Source: Anaerolineales bacterium (GTDB lineage Bacteria > Chloroflexota > Anaerolineae > Anaerolineales > Villigracilaceae). Taken from it: a DNA stretch of 64,000 bases. The notes under the pieces are model-generated. The model did no database searches and was not told where the DNA came from. It saw nothing but the letters and a program-made list of their open reading frames with translations. Both the position numbers and the translations under genes were made by a program. The DNA is taken from positions 62,001 to 126,000 of the forward strand of contig JACMLM010000029.1 of NCBI GenBank assembly GCA_014379595.1, given 5' to 3'. The stretch's first letter is position 1. Each line of letters opens with the position of its first letter. Shown here piece by piece: positions 15,108 to 63,069 of this stretch.

Positions 15108-16483
15108 AAGCTTAATCCTGCGATTCCGATTGGGACGATGGCCGTCAGACAAGCTAATGCCCATATAGCTAGAGTCCGCTCTGAAGGTGCGAGTGAAACG
15201 TCTGTATTCTTATCTTCAAGGAAACTCTCTGGGCTTTCGCCGTGCCCAAATATGCGTCCGATCCATAAAGCGGAAATTCCAAGCAGGATAAGAAAAGCCA
15301 ATGTCACGCCTGCTGCTGAAATGCCAAGCGTGCCAATTTCAGCAGGAAGTTCTCCAAATAGACCTGCGCCGCCAAATGTAATTACAAGCAGCGAGCCGCC
15401 ATTCCATACGGCATGAACACCAACTGCAATAGCAAAACGTTTCAACCAATTTGACCACGCGCCTTGTTCTTCGCATAACACATCGCGCCATGCCAGTGCC
15501 ATCAACCCTGCGCCAAGCGGATGAAGCGCACCGCCCAGCGAACGGATCAGCAAAACGCCGCTCCATAATTCGTAACTGCTTGCGGCATAAATGACATTCT
15601 CAATAGCCGCAAATCCTGCGCCTGCAAGTGCGCCCATCAAAAAGGCTTGCTTGCGATTCAAGCGTCGCAAAATTGGAAGAAGTGCCAGCGGCTTGGCAAT
15701 TTCCTCTGCCAGCGGCGCAATGACCGCAAGCAGAATGAAAACATAAATAAAACCTGGATTAGTTAATGCATTCGCGATATCAAAACCTGCCAACTGTTCA
15801 AACAACGCACGGACACTATCCAGTACAACATTTGCCAGATCAAATACCAGCGCAAGGACAATCGCAGGCAGAATGATCTCTAATATAAGTGCCACAAGAA
15901 CGCCAATTGTGGCTCCACCAATAAAAGCCATTACACCGCGCCGCCAAGTGATGTGATTCTTGTTTGCATCGTCTGTCACATCTACTTTTGTTTCCTCAGT
16001 TATCACATTGTCTGTGGGCAATATTGGTTCGTCCGTAGATAAATCTGCCATAGTGTCCGTTCGTGCGAACCATGCTACAGACCATAATGGTGGGAGAGCT
16101 GCCAGTACAATCAAAATAGGTGGGAAGAAAAGCCCTTCTGAAATATTTGCGTTAAAGAAGAAAAGGCCAAGGAATAGAAGTAAACCAAATGCTCCCACCA
16201 ATAATGGAATAGGGGGCATGCTCAAAATCTTGGATCGCTTCTTTTGAATGGAACCATTACTATGAATAAACGCCGCGATTCCGACACCCATCGTAAGCAA
16301 TACGGCAAGGCAGCTGAATACGCTGTAAAGCATCTCGCTATACTGAAAATAACTTGATGACATCGCACACAGCAGGTTGGCACTTAATGGCAATCCAATG
16401 AGCATCAGAATTCCGCTGATCGCCATGATCATACGCTTGAATACAAGAGGAGTTTCTGCTTCCATTTTATTGTTCACTCCCAT
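15095..16483 (-). CDS. PrsW-type intramembrane protease
   Basis: A 462-residue polytopic protein. The central part has the PrsW (M82) motifs in order: LAEEIAKPLALLP (double Glu), GAGFAAIENVIYA (Glu), ALHPLGAGLMALA (His), and AVGVHAVWNGG (His). In Bacillus PrsW performs site-1 cleavage of an anti-sigma factor. About 200 residues precede these motifs, with several membrane segments and an acidic linker (STDEPILPTDNVITEETK); further segments follow. Start is 16483 or the ATG at 16465; the first overlaps the upstream gene by ten bases. Its substrate is unknown; the neighbours suggest a membrane-linked role. Confidence 0.85.
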   Translation of the reverse strand: MGVNNKMEAETPLVFKRMIMAISGILMLIGLPLSANLLCAMSSSYFQYSEMLYSVFSCLAVLLTMGVGIAAFIHSNGSIQKKRSKILSMPPIPLLVGAFGLLLFLGLFFFNANISEGLFFPPILIVLAALPPLWSVAWFARTDTMADLSTDEPILPTDNVITEETKVDVTDDANKNHITWRRGVMAFIGGATIGVLVALILEIILPAIVLALVFDLANVVLDSVRALFEQLAGFDIANALTNPGFIYVFILLAVIAPLAEEIAKPLALLPILRRLNRKQAFLMGALAGAGFAAIENVIYAASSYELWSGVLLIRSLGGALHPLGAGLMALAWRDVLCEEQGAWSNWLKRFAIAVGVHAVWNGGSLLVITFGGAGLFGELPAEIGTLGISAAGVTLAFLILLGISALWIGRIFGHGESPESFLEDKNTDVSLAPSERTLAIWALACLTAIVPIGIAGLSLWLR

Positions 16484-19400
16484 GTCTCCACCACTTCATC
16501 ACGCCAGGTTTTAAGGGCTTCCATATTGCGCTCGATGACAATTGCGCCCGAGATCATCAGCAGACCAATGATCCCAAAGACAAGCCATTGATTAATATTT
16601 TGCAATGAATTCAATAATTGTCCAAGTACGGCTAGCATTGCACCGATCAAACCTGCGTAGAAGAATCTTCTTAGCCGCCGACCAATTCCCATGGCAAACA
16701 TGAAAAACAATCCTTCTGCCATTAATGTCAGCGCAAACAGCCATCCAAATATCCACGTTTGCCAGAACAACGAGCCTGCCATCAAAAGCAATGCGGCATA
16801 ATCTAACCAACGAGCCAGTAGTTTATTTCCTCTATTCCATTCAAGGAATCCGATACCGAGCAAATATAATCCGACGGGTATGGCATACCATTGAATGAGT
16901 CTCAGGTTATCCCATGCGTTGATGAAGAAAGCATACAAATACCATGCTACAAGCAACATCGCCACAGCAAGATATCCGAGCCGTAATTTCTGATAAGCCG
17001 CCGCTGCAAGTGCGTATAAAAGCCCTGCCAGTGAAAGCACCCACACGGCCATCCAAACAGTTTCGAATTCAACAAAGTTTCTAAAGGAAAGCCCAAACAA
17101 TGCCCGTAACACCCATATAGGAAGATTGATTCCGATAACGAAAGTTACTACTATTGATAAAACTGACAGAATAAAACTCGATTCGCTTAATGGCTTTTCC
17201 CAAATCGATAGCCAGCGCGGACCAAATGAGGATGCTTCTTCTTCCTGACCTGAAACAGGATTCTGTTTAAGAATCTTATATCCCAGCCCGAGGCTTCCGT
17301 AGCCAAAAGCCAGAACTGCAAGCATGACAGGCAAATATTCTATTTTGGTATTTAGAGCAAAGTGCCATTGAAATAATGCGACGCTTCCTAATAATGCGCT
17401 CAAATATGGAAGCCTGCTTGACATCCAGATTGATGCAAGAATCGCGCACATCACTGCGTGGATTAATGTCACTGCCATACCTTCGTTTGTTCCACCATTT
17501 TCTACACTCAAACTACTAACCTGGCCGATGGATATATCCGCGACAAGGAAAAGATAGAATACGCGCGACCAACCGAGGTTCATTTTGCCTGCTTTGATAG
17601 GCGAGCCTTCATTGAATCGTTTTTCAATGAACAAACCCAAAGCTGCCATTGCGAGCGTCAACGGCATGAATCGCAGCCACCATTCCTGCAAGTCAAGTTT
17701 TTGCCAGCCAAGATAATGGAAGAACTGACTCACAGCGAGATGAAATGCTAATAATCCAGCGAACAGCCATCCGCGTAGTTGGAAACGGAAGACAGCCCAA
17801 GTGCAGATCAAAGTCAGCAGAATTAGCGTCAAAGCTCGTAAATCAGCACGTGATCCATTGAAAAGGGGGCTAAAGAATGCCAGTCCGAATCCCAAAACAT
17901 AAGGTGCAAAACCCCACCAATTCAGCAGCCTGTCAATGAAAGCCTGCGGCCAACTTATCAGTTTATCCCATGGGAAGTCTTTCCATGCACCGTATCGTTT
18001 GTCGGCTAACCAGCCGATCCCAAGCGCAATGATCGCGCCAGGCATAAGCGCAAGGCCATAAAAATCCGCTTGCAAATCGGAGCGTTGTAATGTCACTACA
18101 TACGGCACGACGATCAATAAACAGGCAGGGCCGAGGAGTAAGGGTTGGCGTAACCAGAATGCACTGATGGTGTAAAGTAATGCCGCGCTTCCGTAGCCCC
18201 ATATTGCGCCGACTTGATCTCTGCTTGAAGGTGGCAGACCAAACGCGATCAATGCGAATCCGACTGCCATTACACCTGATGCATAAGCCGATAAATTCAC
18301 GCGGCGTAACGCCCACCCGATTAATAAATAATTTGCCGCAAGGCCGATAAGCCACCAGCCCTCTCGCCCGACTTGAATGTTCCCTTCGCGAAGTGCAATC
18401 ATATATGCCAGCGCGCCTAAAGCGGATGCAGGATAAACCCACATTGGATTCCTGAATATGCGCGCCGATACCGTCAGCAGAAGTGCGTCATAAAGCAAGA
18501 CCATCACGAGCAACCCCGTAATGTGGGCGGTGAGCAATGTCCCAACCACAAGCGTTGCATATCCAACGATATAAGCGGGCATTCCATAGGCACGTTTCAA
18601 TTCAGCGCGAGGAGCGATCTGTTCAAGACGTAAGCCAATAATCAATCCGATGATTCCAAATGGAAGGAGGATTAGCCCAAAATGTTCGTGGCGTGCTGAT
18701 GGTAATAACCAGTCCAGCAGATATACACACCACAGCGGAATCAATGCAAACGCTAGATAAAAGAATCGAGTAGCCGATATTGCAGAAACAGGTTCGCTCT
18801 GCTTTTCGATTCGACGATGAGATAACCAAGCAGAAGTTGCATATAAAGCAATTGAAAGCCCAACTGTTACAAGACTCACATTTGTATCTGCAATACCCCA
18901 TAACATTGAAAATGGCAGCAGGAGATGTGTAAATGTTTTTAGCGGCGTCACGTAAGTTGAATCGGCAACCCGACTTACCCATAAACTGATCAGAAAACTT
19001 ACCCACGCCAGTATTGTCCAAGCAATAGCGAACTCTGTTAAAAGAGGTTTATATGCTGTGAACCAGCCAAGGTTGTGATAGATCGTCCATGGAATGAATG
19101 ACAGGAAAGCAGCCAGCCACACAAAGCGTGCCCCGCTTCGTGGAAACATACGTGCCGAGAGTGCATACAACGTGACGATGATGGTTAAGCCGATTGCGGC
19201 CCAGGTTTGTTGAAGACGCCCGCCCCCGAGTAAGACTAGGTTGTGGATGAGTGCCATCCCAATCGTCCCTGCTGAAGCGATCCAACCAGTCACCAGCAGT
19301 GGCCGTCTAAAGAGAATCCATATCATCCGCGCCCGCGCGCGCATTCTTCTAGTACCTGCTTTACTTATTAAATAATTTAATCCGCGTTCGGTCAGAATAA

Positions 19401-22386
19401 ATAGCGAAGCTGTAACTGCGCCAATAGTAGCTGACGATCCATGTCCACGGCTGTACACGATAGCGATCAGGCCTCCAGCGCCGAAACCGAGCCATGCCGC
19501 GACATGCGCCCATCGTTCCTGATAACGCCCCCAGGCAAAGAGAGCATAAGCAATTGTCAAAATTATCAGGTCAGCGGCACCCCATAACTGCATGGACTCA
19601 GTCCACTTTGCAAAACCGAAGAACTCCACCAACGGGTTAACCGCTATACGCGCAGCGACAAAGACCGCCAATAAGTGAGCTGTATCATAAAGCGGCATGA
19701 GGAACTTCGGCGTTGTGTATGCAATTCTTCTTCGTTCTGCTTCCAATCCCGCCAGAAAATAAACAACAATCAACAAACAAATACTGAACGTAATCGCTTC
19801 AGTATCCCAATTCATCTTATTGAGTAAGTTCATCAATCCCCAAGCGGTGACCAACCCTGCAGGATAAAACAAAGCGGACTGAAGCGATGAAACAGCTTCA
19901 GCAAAGTAGAGCAGCCCAATAATTAATAACGTGATTGCGGGAGTATATCCACTTGGTGTGACAGCAAAGGCTGATAAAACTGCGACTATACTGACAAAGA
20001 GTCCAATTAAGCGCCATGGGACTCGACAGGTCTCTTCTGTAAATTTCAGCCAGTGATTTGCGAAAACCATTCCCCATGCCAGGACGGCAAATGCAAGTGG
20101 CAAACTGTAATCCGCAGGGCGAAGATTTATGAAAGTGACCCAGACCCAAAGTGGAAGCGCCATGGCGGCCAGCCAATGATAGATCGCCCCTGTTGTAAAT
20201 AAATCATTACCTAACGATTTTCCATTTGACGATGCGTCTGTTGTTGAAACCTTTATGAGGAATCCTGGCGTCCGTTTATATGCAAGATATGCACCCCACA
20301 TGGAAAGTACAAGCCAGTTGCTCAGTGCGTACACCATCATATCGGCATTGTAAGGAGCCAGAGGTGGGAAAAGTGCAAGCCCTGCGATGACATATCCAGC
20401 AACAACCAGCGGATAAAGATACGCTGTTCGTTCATCTGAACCTATGACAGAGTCAGTTGTCGAATCCGTTGTCCTTTGCAATTTGTTCCCAAGATACAGT
20501 ACTAACAAAATATGACCGATAGCCAGCGAGATCCATCCAATACTCAAATCAAATAAATTTAATTTCAACTCGGTCATCACGAACGTCAGTGTTGTGAACG
20601 AGAAGAAGGATGCACCGTATAAGTAGCGCGGCTTTTTCCACAGGACTGCTGCCAACGTTGCACTGAATATCAACACTGCATGGCTTGCAGCCGCAGATGC
20701 ACTGCTTGTCAAATCGGTCAGTGAATATAATGCAGAGACGATCATCAACGCTGTGCCCCATGTTGTGGCTGTGCGTCCATGTGCTCGCAAAATTGATTCG
20801 TCTTTTACATCCAGAAGATTTTTCCCCGCATACAAATACAAAGGCGTGAGACATGCCAGTCCGAACGCGTGCCACGCAGGATTAATATCCATAGTATGGA
20901 AGAAAGCCGCCTGTCCCATATAAACGGCTATTGGCAATGAAATCGCGGCGAGCACACCCAGGCTGCGGCTGCGATGATGAATTGCGCCCCATCCGAAAAT
21001 AAGCCCGCCTATAAACCAATTAATCGTCATTGCGTAATGTAAGGCATCGAAGGTATCGCGTGTCGCCAATCTCATTACAAGCGTCAACGGCATCAGCAAG
21101 CCAGGAACAATCAAACCCAGATACCGAAACGGTTCTACAAAGACTTGCCATCGTTCCACTTTATTTATTCGCTCGATCTGCGCCGCAAGCATAATTAGTC
21201 CAGCCGCAGTGATTGATACGCTGGCCGTGAACCAATCTCGCGAGATGTGGGTTAAATCACGCGTCACTTCGATTGTTGCCATTGCGAGGCTACCTACTGC
21301 CACTCCCGTCAAATAACCAAAGAAGCGGCTTTGTATCCTCAATGTGGATAATGCATAGGCAATCACGCAAATGATCGAAGTCCAGAACCAGAAATTTCCC
21401 CAGCCTGCCTCCATTGATGTGTATGTAAAAAAGGCGATGTAACAATCAATGGGTATGAAAAGCGCAGCGATTGCGCTCAATGCGATTCCTGAACGGTATA
21501 ACTTTGTTTTATTTCGTACCCACCAACCTAGTGCTGAAAATAGAATTGTAAAACTTGTTGGGATTAGCACACGCACGAATGCGGGAAAATCTTTCCATCC
21601 CCAAATGACAAAAGATATTGCTGCTGTAAATAAAAGAAAGATACCAAAGAAGATCAACCCTTGAAGTGTACGCTCTGAAAGGACTGCACTCCAAAACTTC
21701 TCTCGCATCGGCTTCGACGGGGGAGGAGGATCCATTACAACAGGCTTTACCTCAGGGACAGATTCGACTCGCTTAGGTTCTGCGGGTTTAGGAGCAGGTT
21801 GAATCAAGCCGAGTCGAATTTGCAGTTCATGTCTCTCGGCTTTAAGAGGTGCTGCCGCTTTTTCTCTTTCGTTGTTCGATTTAAACCACTGTTTGGAATT
21901 GAGCAACTCAATATTGTCTAGCAAAAAATTAATTGTTTTAAGTCGTACTTGGTCAGTTTGAAGTAAATTAGGATTTTGATGACCTTCAAGACGTTGACGT
22001 AACTCTTCTGCATGAACACGTTGAGTTTTGACAGGGTCACGCGCATCCGATATGAAATAACCCGCATTAAGCCATTCATCTACTTTATTAAAAAGTGCTT
22101 CAAGATTTATAAGTTCAGGCCAAGCTTTTTCCGCCTCTTTAGGAGTGAAGGAACGCAGGCGCAACCCTAATGTGATTTGCTCCTCTTTTAGACGTGCGGT
22201 GTAATGTTCTTTTAAGAGGGAGATAAACCCAGCCCCAACATTCAATTGTTTCCACCCATCCATTTCATTCAATAACCATTGGAAATGATCCAGTTTATTG
22301 AGTCTGGCCTCGTTACCTTGAAACCCGCAGTGCGGACATGGTTTATTTGTCTCGAAATTTCCACTCTGACATTTTGGACAAAACAT
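16474..22386 (-). CDS. Giant zinc-ribbon multi-pass membrane protein (SCO7613-like)
   Basis: This 1970-residue protein begins with a zinc ribbon (CPKC at 3-6, CPHC at 17-20). A soluble charged segment of about 200 residues follows (LRQRLEGHQ, PAPKPAEPKRVES), then roughly 1700 residues that are almost entirely hydrophobic segments, probably more than 40 membrane spans. The architecture matches proteins annotated as SCO7613 C-terminal domain-containing membrane proteins in actinobacteria and Chloroflexota; their role is unknown. The zinc ribbon and linker should be cytoplasmic. It is first in an operon with PrsW and a single-pass protein. The reading frame is intact throughout. A promoter is placed six bases before the ATG. 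Confidence 0.85.
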   Translation of the reverse strand: MFCPKCQSGNFETNKPCPHCGFQGNEARLNKLDHFQWLLNEMDGWKQLNVGAGFISLLKEHYTARLKEEQITLGLRLRSFTPKEAEKAWPELINLEALFNKVDEWLNAGYFISDARDPVKTQRVHAEELRQRLEGHQNPNLLQTDQVRLKTINFLLDNIELLNSKQWFKSNNEREKAAAPLKAERHELQIRLGLIQPAPKPAEPKRVESVPEVKPVVMDPPPPSKPMREKFWSAVLSERTLQGLIFFGIFLLFTAAISFVIWGWKDFPAFVRVLIPTSFTILFSALGWWVRNKTKLYRSGIALSAIAALFIPIDCYIAFFTYTSMEAGWGNFWFWTSIICVIAYALSTLRIQSRFFGYLTGVAVGSLAMATIEVTRDLTHISRDWFTASVSITAAGLIMLAAQIERINKVERWQVFVEPFRYLGLIVPGLLMPLTLVMRLATRDTFDALHYAMTINWFIGGLIFGWGAIHHRSRSLGVLAAISLPIAVYMGQAAFFHTMDINPAWHAFGLACLTPLYLYAGKNLLDVKDESILRAHGRTATTWGTALMIVSALYSLTDLTSSASAAASHAVLIFSATLAAVLWKKPRYLYGASFFSFTTLTFVMTELKLNLFDLSIGWISLAIGHILLVLYLGNKLQRTTDSTTDSVIGSDERTAYLYPLVVAGYVIAGLALFPPLAPYNADMMVYALSNWLVLSMWGAYLAYKRTPGFLIKVSTTDASSNGKSLGNDLFTTGAIYHWLAAMALPLWVWVTFINLRPADYSLPLAFAVLAWGMVFANHWLKFTEETCRVPWRLIGLFVSIVAVLSAFAVTPSGYTPAITLLIIGLLYFAEAVSSLQSALFYPAGLVTAWGLMNLLNKMNWDTEAITFSICLLIVVYFLAGLEAERRRIAYTTPKFLMPLYDTAHLLAVFVAARIAVNPLVEFFGFAKWTESMQLWGAADLIILTIAYALFAWGRYQERWAHVAAWLGFGAGGLIAIVYSRGHGSSATIGAVTASLFILTERGLNYLISKAGTRRMRARARMIWILFRRPLLVTGWIASAGTIGMALIHNLVLLGGGRLQQTWAAIGLTIIVTLYALSARMFPRSGARFVWLAAFLSFIPWTIYHNLGWFTAYKPLLTEFAIAWTILAWVSFLISLWVSRVADSTYVTPLKTFTHLLLPFSMLWGIADTNVSLVTVGLSIALYATSAWLSHRRIEKQSEPVSAISATRFFYLAFALIPLWCVYLLDWLLPSARHEHFGLILLPFGIIGLIIGLRLEQIAPRAELKRAYGMPAYIVGYATLVVGTLLTAHITGLLVMVLLYDALLLTVSARIFRNPMWVYPASALGALAYMIALREGNIQVGREGWWLIGLAANYLLIGWALRRVNLSAYASGVMAVGFALIAFGLPPSSRDQVGAIWGYGSAALLYTISAFWLRQPLLLGPACLLIVVPYVVTLQRSDLQADFYGLALMPGAIIALGIGWLADKRYGAWKDFPWDKLISWPQAFIDRLLNWWGFAPYVLGFGLAFFSPLFNGSRADLRALTLILLTLICTWAVFRFQLRGWLFAGLLAFHLAVSQFFHYLGWQKLDLQEWWLRFMPLTLAMAALGLFIEKRFNEGSPIKAGKMNLGWSRVFYLFLVADISIGQVSSLSVENGGTNEGMAVTLIHAVMCAILASIWMSSRLPYLSALLGSVALFQWHFALNTKIEYLPVMLAVLAFGYGSLGLGYKILKQNPVSGQEEEASSFGPRWLSIWEKPLSESSFILSVLSIVVTFVIGINLPIWVLRALFGLSFRNFVEFETVWMAVWVLSLAGLLYALAAAAYQKLRLGYLAVAMLLVAWYLYAFFINAWDNLRLIQWYAIPVGLYLLGIGFLEWNRGNKLLARWLDYAALLLMAGSLFWQTWIFGWLFALTLMAEGLFFMFAMGIGRRLRRFFYAGLIGAMLAVLGQLLNSLQNINQWLVFGIIGLLMISGAIVIERNMEALKTWRDEVVETWE

Positions 22387-22753: not shown

Positions 22754-22782
22754 TTGACACAATGAATGCCATGTTCTAAAAT
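22754..22782 (+). promoter_or_regulatory. Promoter of the roadblock/V4R/response-regulator operon
   Basis: TTGACA at 22754-22759, exact 17-base spacer, TAAAAT at 22777-22782. The expected start is near 22789. The leader contains an inverted repeat (ACGTCC ... GGACGT, 22804-22824) before the GAGGAGG ribosome site. Confidence 0.78.
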
Positions 22783-22850
22783 AGTAATATACAATGAATT
22801 TGACGTCCCTAAATTTTTTGGACGTTTACTTCTCCCTGAGGAGGGCCGGT

Positions 22851-23222
22851 TTGACTAAAAATCGTACTCAACAAATGGTGGATCGCCTGCGTGAACTGCA
22901 AGCATCATCACCCGATATTGAAGCATCAGCTGTTGTAAGTGTGGATGGTCTCAGTATTGCATCTGCTCTTCCTCAAGGTGTGGAAGAAGATCGTGTATCT
23001 GCCATGTCTGCGGCTATGCTTTCGCTCGGTGAGCGTATTGCAAGCGAATTGGGGCGCGGCTCTCTTGAACAAGTTTATATTAAAGGTTTAAAGGGATATG
23101 TTCTTTTGATGTCTGTCGGTGATGAAGCTGTTCTTACTGCACTGGCACGTGAACAGGCCAAGCTTGGCCTGATCTTCCTTGATATGCGTCGCGCCGCCGA
23201 AGATCTGGCGAAGTTGATCTAG
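22851..23222 (+). CDS. Roadblock/LC7 domain protein
   Basis: Proteins of this family (MglB, archaeal and bacterial roadblocks) form dimers that regulate small Ras-like GTPases or act as scaffolds. I chose the TTG at 22851 because GAGGAGG lies six bases upstream; the ATG at 22794 has no such site. This gives about 123 residues: helix (QMVDRLRELQ), then the roadblock core (ASAVVSVDGLSIASALP, VSAMSAAMLSLGERIASELG, VYIKGLKGYVLLMSVGDEAV). No GTPase gene is adjacent. It is first in a three-gene operon with a V4R protein (ten-base gap) and a response regulator. Confidence 0.88.
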   Translation: MTKNRTQQMVDRLRELQASSPDIEASAVVSVDGLSIASALPQGVEEDRVSAMSAAMLSLGERIASELGRGSLEQVYIKGLKGYVLLMSVGDEAVLTALAREQAKLGLIFLDMRRAAEDLAKLI

Positions 23223-23232
23223 TGGAGTTGTT

Positions 23233-23868
23233 ATGAGCCCCCTTCAAAAAGCTGGTTTGTATTACCCCAATAAGTTTGGTCTGATTACCATTAAGTCTTT
23301 GGAAGAAGTAATGGGAAAGAATGGCTTAAATGCCATATTGAATCTGGCTGGATTAAATCATTACGTCGAAAATTATCCTCCAGATACACTAGACAAGGGA
23401 TTTGATTTTGCTGAGCTTTCCGCGATTGGTTCTTCATTAGAAGAAATGTACGGCCCTCGCGGCGGACGTGGACTTGCGCTGCGAGCAGGGCGTGCGACTT
23501 TTTCAGATGCGCTTAGAAATTTTGGCGCGCTTGCAGGTGCAGCAGATTTAGCTTTTGTTGTTCTCCCGCTTCAATCCAAGCTGAGAATTGGTCTGCCTGC
23601 CTTTGCAAAAATCTTCTCTCAATTAAGCGATCAGCAAACTACTGTGGAAGAAAAAGATACAGAGTGGATTTGGACCATTCATAAATGCCCATGCTGTTGG
23701 GGCCGTACTGGCGCAGATAAGCCTGTTTGCTTTGTGGCCACAGGATTATTACAGGAAAGCCTGAAGTGGGTTTCGGGCGGTAATGAGTTCCGTGTAAATG
23801 AATCCAAGTGCCTTGCTATTGGCGATAGCGTTTGCGAATTCATTGTACAAAAAGAACCAATTTCATAG
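23233..23868 (+). CDS. V4R-domain protein
   Basis: A 211-residue soluble protein with a good ribosome site (GGAG, five bases before ATG). The C-terminal half fits the V4R (4-vinyl reductase-like) domain, a small-molecule-binding fold found in regulators and in heme/hydrocarbon sensing proteins. Typical are the Cys-rich HKCPCCWGR, FVATGLLQESLKW, and the ending ESKCLAIGDSVCEF. Cysteines in CPCC and the last Cys could bind metal. Ligand unknown. It lies between the roadblock gene and a response regulator, which suggests a sensor role in that pathway. Confidence 0.8.
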   Translation: MSPLQKAGLYYPNKFGLITIKSLEEVMGKNGLNAILNLAGLNHYVENYPPDTLDKGFDFAELSAIGSSLEEMYGPRGGRGLALRAGRATFSDALRNFGALAGAADLAFVVLPLQSKLRIGLPAFAKIFSQLSDQQTTVEEKDTEWIWTIHKCPCCWGRTGADKPVCFVATGLLQESLKWVSGGNEFRVNESKCLAIGDSVCEFIVQKEPIS

Positions 23869-23886
23869 CATTAACTAAGGTTTCGC

Positions 23887-24741
23887 GTGACAGACATCAA
23901 GCTCAAAATATTGATCATTGAAGACGACCTTGACGTGGCTGAAATGCTTAACGCCTATTTTCGTGTTCAAGGTTATGAAGTGTTTACAGTTAATTGGGGG
24001 GAAGATGGTGTGCGTTCATGCCAAACTGTCCATCCTGACTTAGTTATCCTTGATATTCGACTTCCCGATATCGATGGCTATGAAGTAGCACGTCGCCTGC
24101 GTGGCGATCGTCGCACTTCTGATGTACCGATTATTTTTCTCACCGAAAAACGTGACCGTTCAGATCGCTTGCAGGGATTGGAAATCGGCGCGGATGATTA
24201 CATCACCAAGCCTTTTGATGTGCAGGAACTGCGTTTGCGCGTCCGAAATGCACTTAAGCGCATGAGTCAGGGTTCACTGACAAACCCTGTCACCGGTTTG
24301 CCAGAAGGTGCTTTGGTAGACGAAAAACTCTCTGAAGTGCTTGGCAAAGATGGGGTAGCAGTATTATTTGTTGCCATTGAGAATATGGACGCCTTTCGAG
24401 AAGCCTATGGATTCGTGGCATCCGATGATGTTCTTCGTGCAATCAGTTTGATGGTAATGAATACCATGCGCGAATATAGCAGGCCCGAAGATTTTCTTGG
24501 TCACGTGAGCGGTACTGATTTTCTGCTTGTTGTTCCTCCTTCAAATCTTTCAGCGCTGAGTGAAAAACTTCGCGCCCGGCTTGAGCAATCTGTTGAATAT
24601 TTCTATCCGATCAAAGACCGTGAGCAAGTTGCAAACCGTATAGACCGGCTTGGTGCAAAACTGGCGGAAATTGCATCTCTTAAAAATCAATTCACTACAG
24701 CAGATGAAGTCAAAGCGGAGTTGTTGCGTCTTAAAAAATAG
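23887..24741 (+). CDS. Response regulator with degenerate GGDEF-like domain
   Basis: Starts with GTG at 23887 (AAGG six bases upstream); 284 residues. The receiver domain (about 6-122) has the acidic pair in IIEDDLDVAE, the phosphorylatable Asp in LVILDIRLPDIDG, and Lys in YITKPFD. The second half starts with NPVTGLPEG, which resembles the DxLTGLxNR start of GGDEF domains, but the signature is VSGTDFLLVV in place of GGDEF, so it is unlikely to make c-di-GMP. It could be a binding or docking output. No histidine kinase is adjacent. Confidence 0.88.
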   Translation: MTDIKLKILIIEDDLDVAEMLNAYFRVQGYEVFTVNWGEDGVRSCQTVHPDLVILDIRLPDIDGYEVARRLRGDRRTSDVPIIFLTEKRDRSDRLQGLEIGADDYITKPFDVQELRLRVRNALKRMSQGSLTNPVTGLPEGALVDEKLSEVLGKDGVAVLFVAIENMDAFREAYGFVASDDVLRAISLMVMNTMREYSRPEDFLGHVSGTDFLLVVPPSNLSALSEKLRARLEQSVEYFYPIKDREQVANRIDRLGAKLAEIASLKNQFTTADEVKAELLRLKK

Positions 24742-24749
24742 GAAGTTGT

Positions 24750-24824
24750 TTGCGTATTACGGTTGTTACACCTACATATAACGAAGCGGAGAACCTGCCT
24801 AAGCTGTTTTCCGCTTTATTGTAA
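24750..24824 (+). pseudogene. N-terminal remnant of a family 2 glycosyltransferase
   Basis: From TTG at 24750 the frame reads RITVVTPTYNEAENLPKLFS and then ALL before TAA. This is the unmistakable start of dolichol-phosphate mannosyltransferase-like GT2 enzymes, cut after about 24 residues. It lies nine bases after the response regulator, as a fourth operon gene would. The rest of the gene is missing; the following about 120 bases show no continuation. Confidence 0.7.
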
Positions 24825-61914: not shown

Positions 61915-63069
61915 TTATTTTGGCTCTTGAACGAGTCGAAAACCAAGTGCTTCCCCTTCAACTTCGGGTTTAAACTCAAGGCGATATGCTGAGCTAGCTG
62001 CTATAGCTGCGGCGTTAAACCCACCGCCCCGAACCACTCGTGTCTCATCATCAGCGCTTGTAGAAGTCCATTCCCAAATATTGCCGTGCATATCAAAAAG
62101 TTTAAGAGGGTTCTCCTTTAATAGGCCAACAGGGTGAGCATAGGCATCTCCACGATTGGATGCATTCCCTGCATACCAACCATATTCCTCAAGTTGGTAT
62201 TTGTCATCGCTGAAACTGAATTTAGTACGAGGGCCGTGTACTAATTCTTGACCGCCCCGAGCAGCGTATTCCCATTCCGCTTCTGTCGGGAGTCGATAAC
62301 TAAATTGAGAGTCCACCTTATTAATCCTTCTTATAAAATCCATTGCATCGTGCCATTGCACTTTTACGGCAGGATTATCGTTTCCATATCTCACGTTCTT
62401 TTTATTCAGCCAAGGTTGTGTATTCATCAATGCAATCCACTCAGATTGCGTAACTACATATTGTCCCAAGCGGAAGGAATCAACTTGCACTAGATGCTCC
62501 TTTAGCGCATGGGGCTGGACTATTGGGTCATTATCACCAATGATAAAAGTATCACCCGTAATTGGCACAAATCTACTTCTAAATTTTTCCAGCCAATCTT
62601 CTGTAATTCCAACCAAGGATGCCGTAAAAAGATCGTCAATGCTTTTTACTAATTTTACAAATATCTCGTTCTGTTTAGCCCTATCCATCATATCAAGTGG
62701 TGATGATGGCGAATTAACACCCTGATAAATTAACAAAGGCGAATCTTTTGTTAAATAAGAGGAACTGACAAAGACTGGAAAAATACGTAACCCCCGATCG
62801 CTCGCTGCATTTAACAATTGCGGCAACTCATTGTTTTTTATGTAATCAGACGCGATAAAATCCTGGCTTATCAAAAGAATAGCAGCATTTGCTTCACTCA
62901 AAGCCTTTTGAATACTGGCGTGCCAGTCTGAGGATGGTTTAATGTCAGTATCGCTCCATATCTTCAATTCTTCGTCGCGCACAAGAGGTTGAAGAAAAGG
63001 CTTTAATCTTTTCAACCACTTGGCATCTTTATGGCTATAGCTAATAAAAATTTGTCGATTGTTCGGCAT
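61915..63069 (-). CDS. TIR-SUMF1 (C-lectin fold) fusion protein
   Basis: 384 residues from the ATG at 63069, chosen because AGGAG lies six bases upstream. The N-terminal TIR domain (about 5-150) starts RQIFISYSHKDAKWLKRL and has a Glu in KNNELPQLLNA at the place of the catalytic Glu of NADase TIRs. The C-terminal half is a SUMF1/FGE-sulfatase domain (YRLPTEAEWEYAARGG, DMHGNIWEWTS, VVRGGGF, LGFRLV). The two catalytic Cys of formylglycine-generating enzymes are absent in the RGGGFNAAAIAASSAYR segment, so it is more likely a ligand-binding C-lectin fold. A sensor-effector role in defence is inferred. Confidence 0.9.
   Translation of the reverse strand: MPNNRQIFISYSHKDAKWLKRLKPFLQPLVRDEELKIWSDTDIKPSSDWHASIQKALSEANAAILLISQDFIASDYIKNNELPQLLNAASDRGLRIFPVFVSSSYLTKDSPLLIYQGVNSPSSPLDMMDRAKQNEIFVKLVKSIDDLFTASLVGITEDWLEKFRSRFVPITGDTFIIGDNDPIVQPHALKEHLVQVDSFRLGQYVVTQSEWIALMNTQPWLNKKNVRYGNDNPAVKVQWHDAMDFIRRINKVDSQFSYRLPTEAEWEYAARGGQELVHGPRTKFSFSDDKYQLEEYGWYAGNASNRGDAYAHPVGLLKENPLKLFDMHGNIWEWTSTSADDETRVVRGGGFNAAAIAASSAYRLEFKPEVEGEALGFRLVQEPK

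Follow-up and report, generated by a model that had tools for sequence, protein, structure and literature searches.

A conserved roadblock-V4R-receiver operon of Anaerolineales and its possible tie to a Ras-like GTPase

Introduction

Several of the described systems nearest to the genes treated here are built around small GTPases. PATAN neighbors of MglA-type GTPases, and roadblock genes next to GTPase genes, are already known (PMC4316618). So is the homology of V4R to Bet3, from an account by Podar and colleagues that did not settle whether V4R proteins of prokaryotes have trafficking-like roles (PMC2253512). Pairing GTPases with their regulators by genome layout is described as hard in an Asgard study, since the GTPase genes of MK-D1 lie mostly outside shared operons (PMC10933270). 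Here we analyze a 64,000-nucleotide stretch of the genome of an Anaerolineales bacterium (GenBank assembly GCA_014379595.1, contig JACMLM010000029.1, forward-strand positions 62,001 to 126,000), called the window below, and in it the genes for a roadblock protein, ROBL, a V4R protein, V4R1, and a response regulator, RR1. Comparison with relatives supports reading the three as one conserved signaling operon. Gene order in bacteria also links V4R both with roadblock and with a Ras-like GTPase, a connection for which we found no report among the open-access literature matches listed; the term V4R has 0 occurrences in the main text of PMC4316618.

Gene order of the operon

Gene neighborhoods were surveyed in two samples. 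The first holds 81 loci, namely the window and the 80 best named relatives of V4R1; these were picked by V4R1 similarity, so V4R1 identity among them is biased upwards. The second, the kinship set, holds 61 genomes drawn by kinship and independently of the protein. ROBL is directly before V4R1 in 80 of the 81 loci, the sole miss (L059) being a locus that starts at the V4R gene; RR1 comes next in 78 and a family-2 glycosyltransferase gene, GT2, after it in 68, with median intergenic gaps of 10, 17, and 8 nucleotides (nt) along the conserved operon. V4R was found in 60 of the 61 kinship-set genomes and ROBL in 59, and the two genes are at most 400 nt apart in 50; two of 51 close pairs (G037 and G051, family f2) are divergent. 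Random gene order in relatives, which a first-pass annotation of the window had named as the outcome that would count against its proposal, is not what is seen, because ROBL-V4R adjacency holds in both samples.

That annotation, made from the letters alone, had called a roadblock protein, a Cys-rich V4R protein and a receiver with a degenerate GGDEF domain, co-transcribed from a consensus promoter. All three proteins are confirmed by Pfam matches above cut-offs, V4R1 having six Cys. Co-transcription fits the stop-to-start distances in the window, 10 nt from ROBL to V4R1 and 18 nt from V4R1 to RR1, and the promoter described below.

ROBL is assigned to Robl_LC7 by its sequence match (65.9 bits against a gathering threshold of 23, E = 2.8e-18). 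Its solved relatives include 7f8m (E = 1.2e-30) and the MglB chain 6h5b (E = 0.0013), and it fails the Thermus-type MglB equivalog (NCBI NF052242) at 16.5 bits against a cut-off of 200. Two ROBL genes were found in the genome that holds the window. The second, 75% identical, is at L005 1417-1887 (contig C35), near genes for CTP synthase and peptidyl-tRNA hydrolase.

The GTPase and its sister operon

No Ras-like GTPase gene adjoins the roadblock gene in the window. The first-pass annotation had said as much, which is true of the window and misleading about the genome, where a search finds one gene of this GTPase family, on another contig, C46, in an operon with a V4R paralog. That sister operon reads DUF4388, Ras-like GTPase, alpha/beta hydrolase, V4R2, LbH (hexapeptide-repeat), and dehydrogenase-like protein; we take DUF4388 to be the PATAN domain. 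The GTPase scores 40.2 bits against 21.6 for the Ras family, its translation has G1, G3, and G4 motifs GPFSAGKT, FGTPGQ, and NKQD, and Arf, Rab, and MglA chains are among its solved relatives.

The GTPase is present at E 1e-30 in 53 of the 61 kinship-set genomes, and 37 have a V4R gene within 1.2 kb of it on that strand. Five of the 37 pairs are less than 200 nt apart and so have no hydrolase gene in between. Two genomes, G043 and G056, have everything in a single run, ROBL-V4R1-RR1-GT2-DUF4388-GTPase-hydrolase-V4R2-LbH-RR2-large GAF-type protein, with an SDR gene after LbH in G043. G070, from outside the class, has DUF4388-GTPase-ROBL-V4R-LbH-hydrolase-ROBL on one strand, and G146 has DUF4388-GTPase-V4R. 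The order in G062 and G074 is DUF4388-GTPase-ROBL with a further frame between GTPase and ROBL, and no V4R was found in either genome. Pairwise, then, ROBL with V4R, V4R with GTPase, and ROBL with GTPase are each linked, in different lineages.

Two details of G062 stand by themselves. DUF4388 and the Ras-like GTPase form one 460-residue open frame there (L183 3085-4467), and the frame between GTPase and ROBL (L183 2664-3137) encodes a second, diverged Robl_LC7 protein, at 26.2 bits against 23, so the roadblock pair may be a mixed one in some lineages.

Residues and fold of V4R1

V4R1 is assigned to V4R at 38.9 bits against a gathering threshold of 31 (E = 8.9e-10). It also passes MetOD1 (26.2 bits against 23.8), a family described as similar to V4R (PMC5847659). 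BchJ, MsvR, and MglB equivalogs were rejected, all being below cut-off, BchJ (4-vinyl reductase, TIGR02019) for V4R1 at 15.2 bits against 74.3. Phmmer of V4R1 against the Protein Data Bank at E up to 1 gives no sequence relative.

The genome search gave three V4R genes, of which V4R2, on C46, is 46% identical to V4R1. The third and diverged one, V4R3, is at L003 1486-2091 (C15), between genes for a GNAT acetyltransferase and an alpha/beta hydrolase, and it keeps the equivalents of C166, E190, C193, and C201 with the CPxC motif lost. In an alignment of 44 rows, A1, made of V4R1, V4R2, and one V4R3, those four residues occur all together in 42 rows, and C152 and C155 are missing in V4R3 only. 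By sequence this is the Cys-Glu-Cys-Cys ligand set of the PoxR/DmpR-type zinc site with a different Glu spacing, so V4R1 carries a candidate Cys/Glu metal site, the metal probably being zinc.

The AlphaFold2 model of V4R1 (pLDDT 89) has what appears to be the Bet3/V4R fold, a fold common also to H-NOX. Foldseek puts H-NOX chains on top (E = 6.2e-6), and VIA-align likewise ranks H-NOX first (Z = 13.9 over 170 residues at 3.5 Å), followed by Thorarchaeota TRAPPC3 (7yh3, Z = 13.3, 144 residues, 2.9 Å), mouse Bet3 (1wc8, Z = 12.7), MopR (Z = 12.0), and 3cue_E (Z = 11.9). Such a list tells the superfamily and does not tell the function.

Taken at face value, the top of both lists would make V4R1 a heme or NO sensor of H-NOX type that signals via RR1. 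The residues speak otherwise. The H-NOX heme ligands we take to be a proximal His, in the region of about residues 100-106 here, and a YxSxR motif. V4R1 has His only at 43 and 150, neither near residues 100-106, position 150 is Glu in 7 of the 44 rows, and YxSxR is found in 0 of 44. The Cys/Glu set is conserved instead, and the Pfam scan of V4R1 has no HNOB match at E up to 1. Heme is unlikely given the positions of the His and the missing motif, and we consider a gas sensor highly improbable. Of the metal or heme binding that the first-pass annotation had suggested checking in V4R, the metal part is thus favored by sequence and the heme part is rejected on residues.

The TRAPPC3 and Bet3 matches suggest a different assembly, in which a roadblock dimer flanked by the two V4R paralogs, comparable to the Bet3-type pairs of TRAPP, would be a TRAPP-like, ligand-gated exchange factor for a dedicated Ras-like GTPase. 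The predicted fold and the linked GTPase are in keeping with this; there is no TRAPP family among the V4R1 Pfam matches up to E 1 and no Bet3 sequence match. Attractive as it is, we regard such an activator as distinctly unlikely. If it were true, the union of roadblock/longin and V4R/Bet3 around a small GTPase would not be a eukaryotic or Asgard invention.

One V4R1 gene, in the two-contig genome G017 (C2, 461042-461674), has an in-frame TGA, and AlaRS in that genome, at 310214-313045, is matched in three pieces; both breaks look like sequencing error.

RR1 and GT2

RR1 has a receiver (Response_reg, E = 2.9e-29) followed by a GGDEF domain (E = 6.1e-7) in which SGTDF replaces GGDEF. Receiver residues E12, D56, T86, and K108 are invariant in 75 of 75 RR1 sequences, and GG(D/E)EF occurs in 0 of the 75, so a diguanylate cyclase is rejected on motif. 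The RxxD inhibitory c-di-GMP site is partly kept, with R199 in 40 and D202 in 68 of the 75. RR1 is best taken, from its sequence, as a phosphorylation-gated adaptor.

Position 24824, the end point chosen in the first-pass annotation, is the stop codon of a GT2 stump that the annotation left unmentioned. Among solved structures GT2 is closest to dolichol monophosphate mannose synthase (5mlz, E = 7.4e-28). Together with the frequent place of GT2 behind RR1, and with V4R domains being thought to bind hydrophobic ligands (PMC2253512), this could be read as an operon regulating polyprenol-linked glycosylation, V4R reading a polyprenol or lipid and controlling GT2. Yet 13 of the 81 loci show no GT2 behind RR1 (in two, L064 and L101, the contig ends before the GT2 position), it is a stump in the window with no other match above 33% identity in the genome, and it is less conserved than ROBL and V4R1. 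Its absences weaken GT2 as a core effector, and we think control of glycosylation very doubtful. A local deletion or rearrangement is likely behind the stump.

Co-occurrence and sequence constraint

A phylum sample of 251 Chloroflexota genomes, drawn evenly, was searched at E 1e-20, and the presence lists were compared by eye. V4R was found in 47, ROBL in 47, and the GTPase in 48, any of the three in 49 and all three in 45. The discordant genomes are G200 (V4R without ROBL, no GTPase match), G206 (V4R without ROBL, GTPase match), and G062 and G074 (ROBL and GTPase without V4R; 73% and 84% complete). Family f13 is split, with the full trio in G048 and G272 and no member of it in G224, G232, or G256. 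All three are missing from G050, although AlaRS was found there, and G058 has V4R and AlaRS with neither ROBL nor GTPase at the thresholds used.

The degree of conservation was measured against one common reference, L038, over 32 loci (30 for GT2). Median identities are 97.6% for ROBL, 93.3% for V4R1, 87.3% for TypA, 79.7% for GT2, and 77.2% for RR1, and in each of the 32 loci both ROBL and V4R1 exceed TypA. Among kinship-drawn genomes, full-length AlaRS identity is 75-85% inside the genus and about 52-61% order-wide. The operon copy of ROBL, found in 30 of 36 relatives, has 93-98% identity inside the genus; order-wide, the best ROBL copy is at 63-88%, with most values at 75-88%. These identities indicate that ROBL and V4R1 are under strong constraint, both being more conserved than TypA, and ROBL also than AlaRS.

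Proposed switch

With a confidence only a little beyond even, we favor a reading in which a GTPase switch of MglA/MglB type is split and the operon supplies its regulator half, V4R being the ligand adaptor and the receiver an input. A ROBL dimer would serve as docking platform for the Ras-like GTPase of the sister operon (DUF4388-GTPase-hydrolase-V4R2, G000:C46). The V4R1 pocket would bind a hydrophobic ligand and be pinned by the Cys3Glu metal site, probably with zinc, and the ligand or metal state of V4R1 would be handed to ROBL, V4R2 acting alike on the GTPase side. RR1 would supply a phosphorylation signal that, together with the V4R1 state, sets the activity of the ROBL dimer on the GTPase; because its GGDEF site is lost, RR1 would be an adaptor or scaffold and not a cyclase. 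DUF4388, V4R2, and the RR2/GAF proteins may form the other side of the switch, and GT2, where present, may be an accessory or output. From the gene content, order and residues we infer which proteins touch, which way the signal runs, what ligand and metal are bound, and whether GTP hydrolysis or exchange is affected.

A number of points weigh against this switch. The contact between any two of these proteins is part of what we infer. Of the 53 kinship-set genomes with both ROBL and GTPase, only 2 have them at most 5 kb apart, a count from which contig ends hide some cases. In all nine loci from families f35, f45, f71, and f74, which are outside the class and presumably Chloroflexia, no ROBL or GTPase gene lies closer to V4R than about 8 kb. 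LbH and RR2 follow V4R in four of these nine and not in five, the gene upstream of V4R in one (L158) encodes a MoCF_biosynth protein, and ROBL and GTPase are both elsewhere in eight of the nine genomes, G206 being the one without ROBL. The C35 paralog, and not the ROBL of the window, could be the partner of the GTPase. Two V4R1 rows of the 44, L044 and L054, lack both E190 and C193. The top structural Z belongs to H-NOX, less than 1 from TRAPPC3, and neighbors in that series differ by less than 1. The base of the V4R tree is unresolved, with too little support to date the V4R1/V4R2 split. Finally, co-occurrence is confounded by descent, which explains much of it, since the carriers fall into few clades.

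The rarity of close ROBL-GTPase pairs, the missing GTPase neighbor in the window and the second ROBL in the genome would also suit a GTPase-independent sensor of one operon, in which V4R senses a ligand, the ROBL dimer is only a scaffold, RR1 relays the state, and the GTPase operon is a separate paralogous system. That sensor sits poorly with the head-to-tail or mixed arrangements in G043, G056, and G070, the ROBL-GTPase linkage in G062 and G074, and the joint absence of all three proteins from G050 and three f13 genomes, and we consider it unlikely. The small sensory system of the first-pass annotation survives as a conserved signaling operon; a stand-alone system is improbable because the GTPase is in the V4R2 operon and, in relatives, beside roadblock or V4R.

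Upstream signals and genomic setting

Table 1. Positions of the operon and its upstream signals within the window
Feature	Position	Strand	Remark
Promoter TTGACA-17-TAAAAT	22754..22782	+	11/12 consensus matches; spacer aaCTTGACACAatg...gCCaTGttCTAAAaTag conserved too
Inverted repeat GACGTCC-11-GGACGTT	22802..22826	+	Lies after the promoter and before the ribosome site; may form a hairpin in the 5' UTR
Ribosome binding site GGAGGG	22840..22845	+	
ROBL, Roadblock/LC7 protein, 123 aa, TTG start	22851..23222	+	Pfam Robl_LC7
V4R1, V4R protein, 211 aa	23233..23868	+	Pfam V4R; CPxCW and Cys/Glu metal-site candidates
RR1, receiver and degenerate GGDEF, 284 aa	23887..24741	+	Intact phospho-acceptor set in receiver
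GT2 stump, DPM-synthase-like glycosyltransferase, 24 codons, TTG start	24750..24824	+	Full gene follows RR1 in most relatives

The promoter (Table 1) is the top of 9 promoter-like sites between 22380 and 25000, where shuffles yield 4.6 sites. Of 79 homologous upstream regions, 78 have a site with at least 10 of 12 matches, where base-composition shuffles yield 1.5 on average and 4 at most, and the spacer is largely kept among the 71 of the 79 regions aligned on the site (8 were left out for other spacing or too little DNA). The site is more than chance because of these two observations, and the conserved spacer looks as though a second protein reads the promoter.

A search of the genome for the promoter with up to 3 mismatches gives seven matches, one being the promoter itself and the next best having 2 mismatches, with no further match below 2; the backward-read control gives one match. 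A regulon sharing the promoter was rejected, as four of the six other matches hold near-palindromes like TTAGAACRTATGTTCTAA that resemble LexA boxes and not copies of the promoter. These four sites are at L177, L180, L181, and L182 (contigs C48, C44, C58, and C68 of the genome).

The TTG start of ROBL, already noted in the first-pass annotation, is found at the homologous place in 79 of 79 loci, and V4R1 starts with ATG in 80 of 80. Within 16 nt before the ROBL start, GGAG occurs in 79 of 79 loci, GGAGG in 78, and GGAGGG in 75. An inverted-repeat stem ending at -28 to -21 is present in 44 of 79 loci (base-composition shuffles, mean 5.6, maximum 10) and in 25 of the nearer 40 (shuffles, mean 2.9, maximum 7), so that the place is kept among many loci and the sequence differs. 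Covariation is modest, both sides being changed at 4 of 8 predicted pairs in 40 sequences. Folding is weakly better than in dinucleotide shuffles, with z of -3.2 in the window and a median z of -1.2 in the 79, and in the nearer 40 the median fraction of shuffles that fold equally well is 0.165. The repeat may be an RNA hairpin affecting the stability or translation of the TTG-started roadblock gene.

The contig of the window is C32 in a 4.47-Mb genome that is 95% complete. The nearest named relatives of that genome are Anaerolineales and other Chloroflexota, almost all of them metagenome-assembled genomes. Upstream of the operon on the opposite strand is a tRNA-Asp gene, and 16474-22386 on the minus strand encodes a 1970-residue protein that has a zinc-ribbon-like CxxC element at its N-terminus and numerous hydrophobic segments, for which the Pfam scan gives no match above cut-off.

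Comparison with known systems

The operon pairs two families whose eukaryotic cousins share a GTPase-activating complex of membrane traffic. As the bacterial gene order links V4R with roadblock and with one Ras-like GTPase, trafficking-like roles can now be asked about in four small proteins that have names. A functional lead also follows for proteins that exceed TypA in conservation in these bacteria, and in the case of the roadblock AlaRS as well.

The gene set is not assigned here to MglA/MglB, conservon or TRAPP, because not every defining feature of any one of them is seen. Like MglA/MglB of Myxococcus and Thermus, it has a roadblock regulator, a Ras-like GTPase with P-loop and NKxD, and DUF4388 beside the GTPase; unlike them, it has the roadblock split into an operon of its own with V4R and a receiver protein. 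The window lacks the MglA/MglB adjacency of GTPase and roadblock, which is seen in G070, G062, and G074; in G043 and G056 the two genes belong to a single cluster. The Streptomyces conservons (CvnA-D) are similar in combining roadblock, Ras-like GTPase, and sensory input. However, no kinase or CvnC-type protein was seen beside the roadblock in the window and L035, whose gene content thus does not give the conservon set of histidine kinase, roadblock, CvnC, and GTPase in one operon, and V4R and DUF4388 are present instead. RomR, described as working with MglA/MglB, is likewise a receiver protein tied to a roadblock/GTPase switch, whereas the C-terminal part of RR1 is a degenerate GGDEF domain.

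With PoxR, MopR, and DmpR the likeness is in V4R1, which has the same predicted fold. The zinc ligands given for DmpR are C151, E172, C177, and C185, and the spacings of its three Cys are within one residue of those of C166, C193, and C201 in V4R1; the Glu precedes the second Cys by 3 residues in V4R1 and by 5 in DmpR as printed (PMC7264223). Unlike those regulators V4R1 is a stand-alone protein with no AAA+ output and has an extra CPxCW motif.

The core of TRAPP, a Rab exchange factor built of Bet3/TRAPPC3 and longin, is approached by the TRAPPC3/Bet3 fold of the V4R1 model, by the linked Ras-like GTPase, and by the kinship of roadblock to longin (PMC2253512, PMC10933270). It differs in having longin where this system, known from genes and a model, has roadblock, and in the sequence of Bet3. 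The Asgard account says of MK-D1 that its GTPase genes do not as a rule share operons with genes of this kind (PMC10933270); here, in several bacterial lineages, they are in operons with roadblock or V4R genes.

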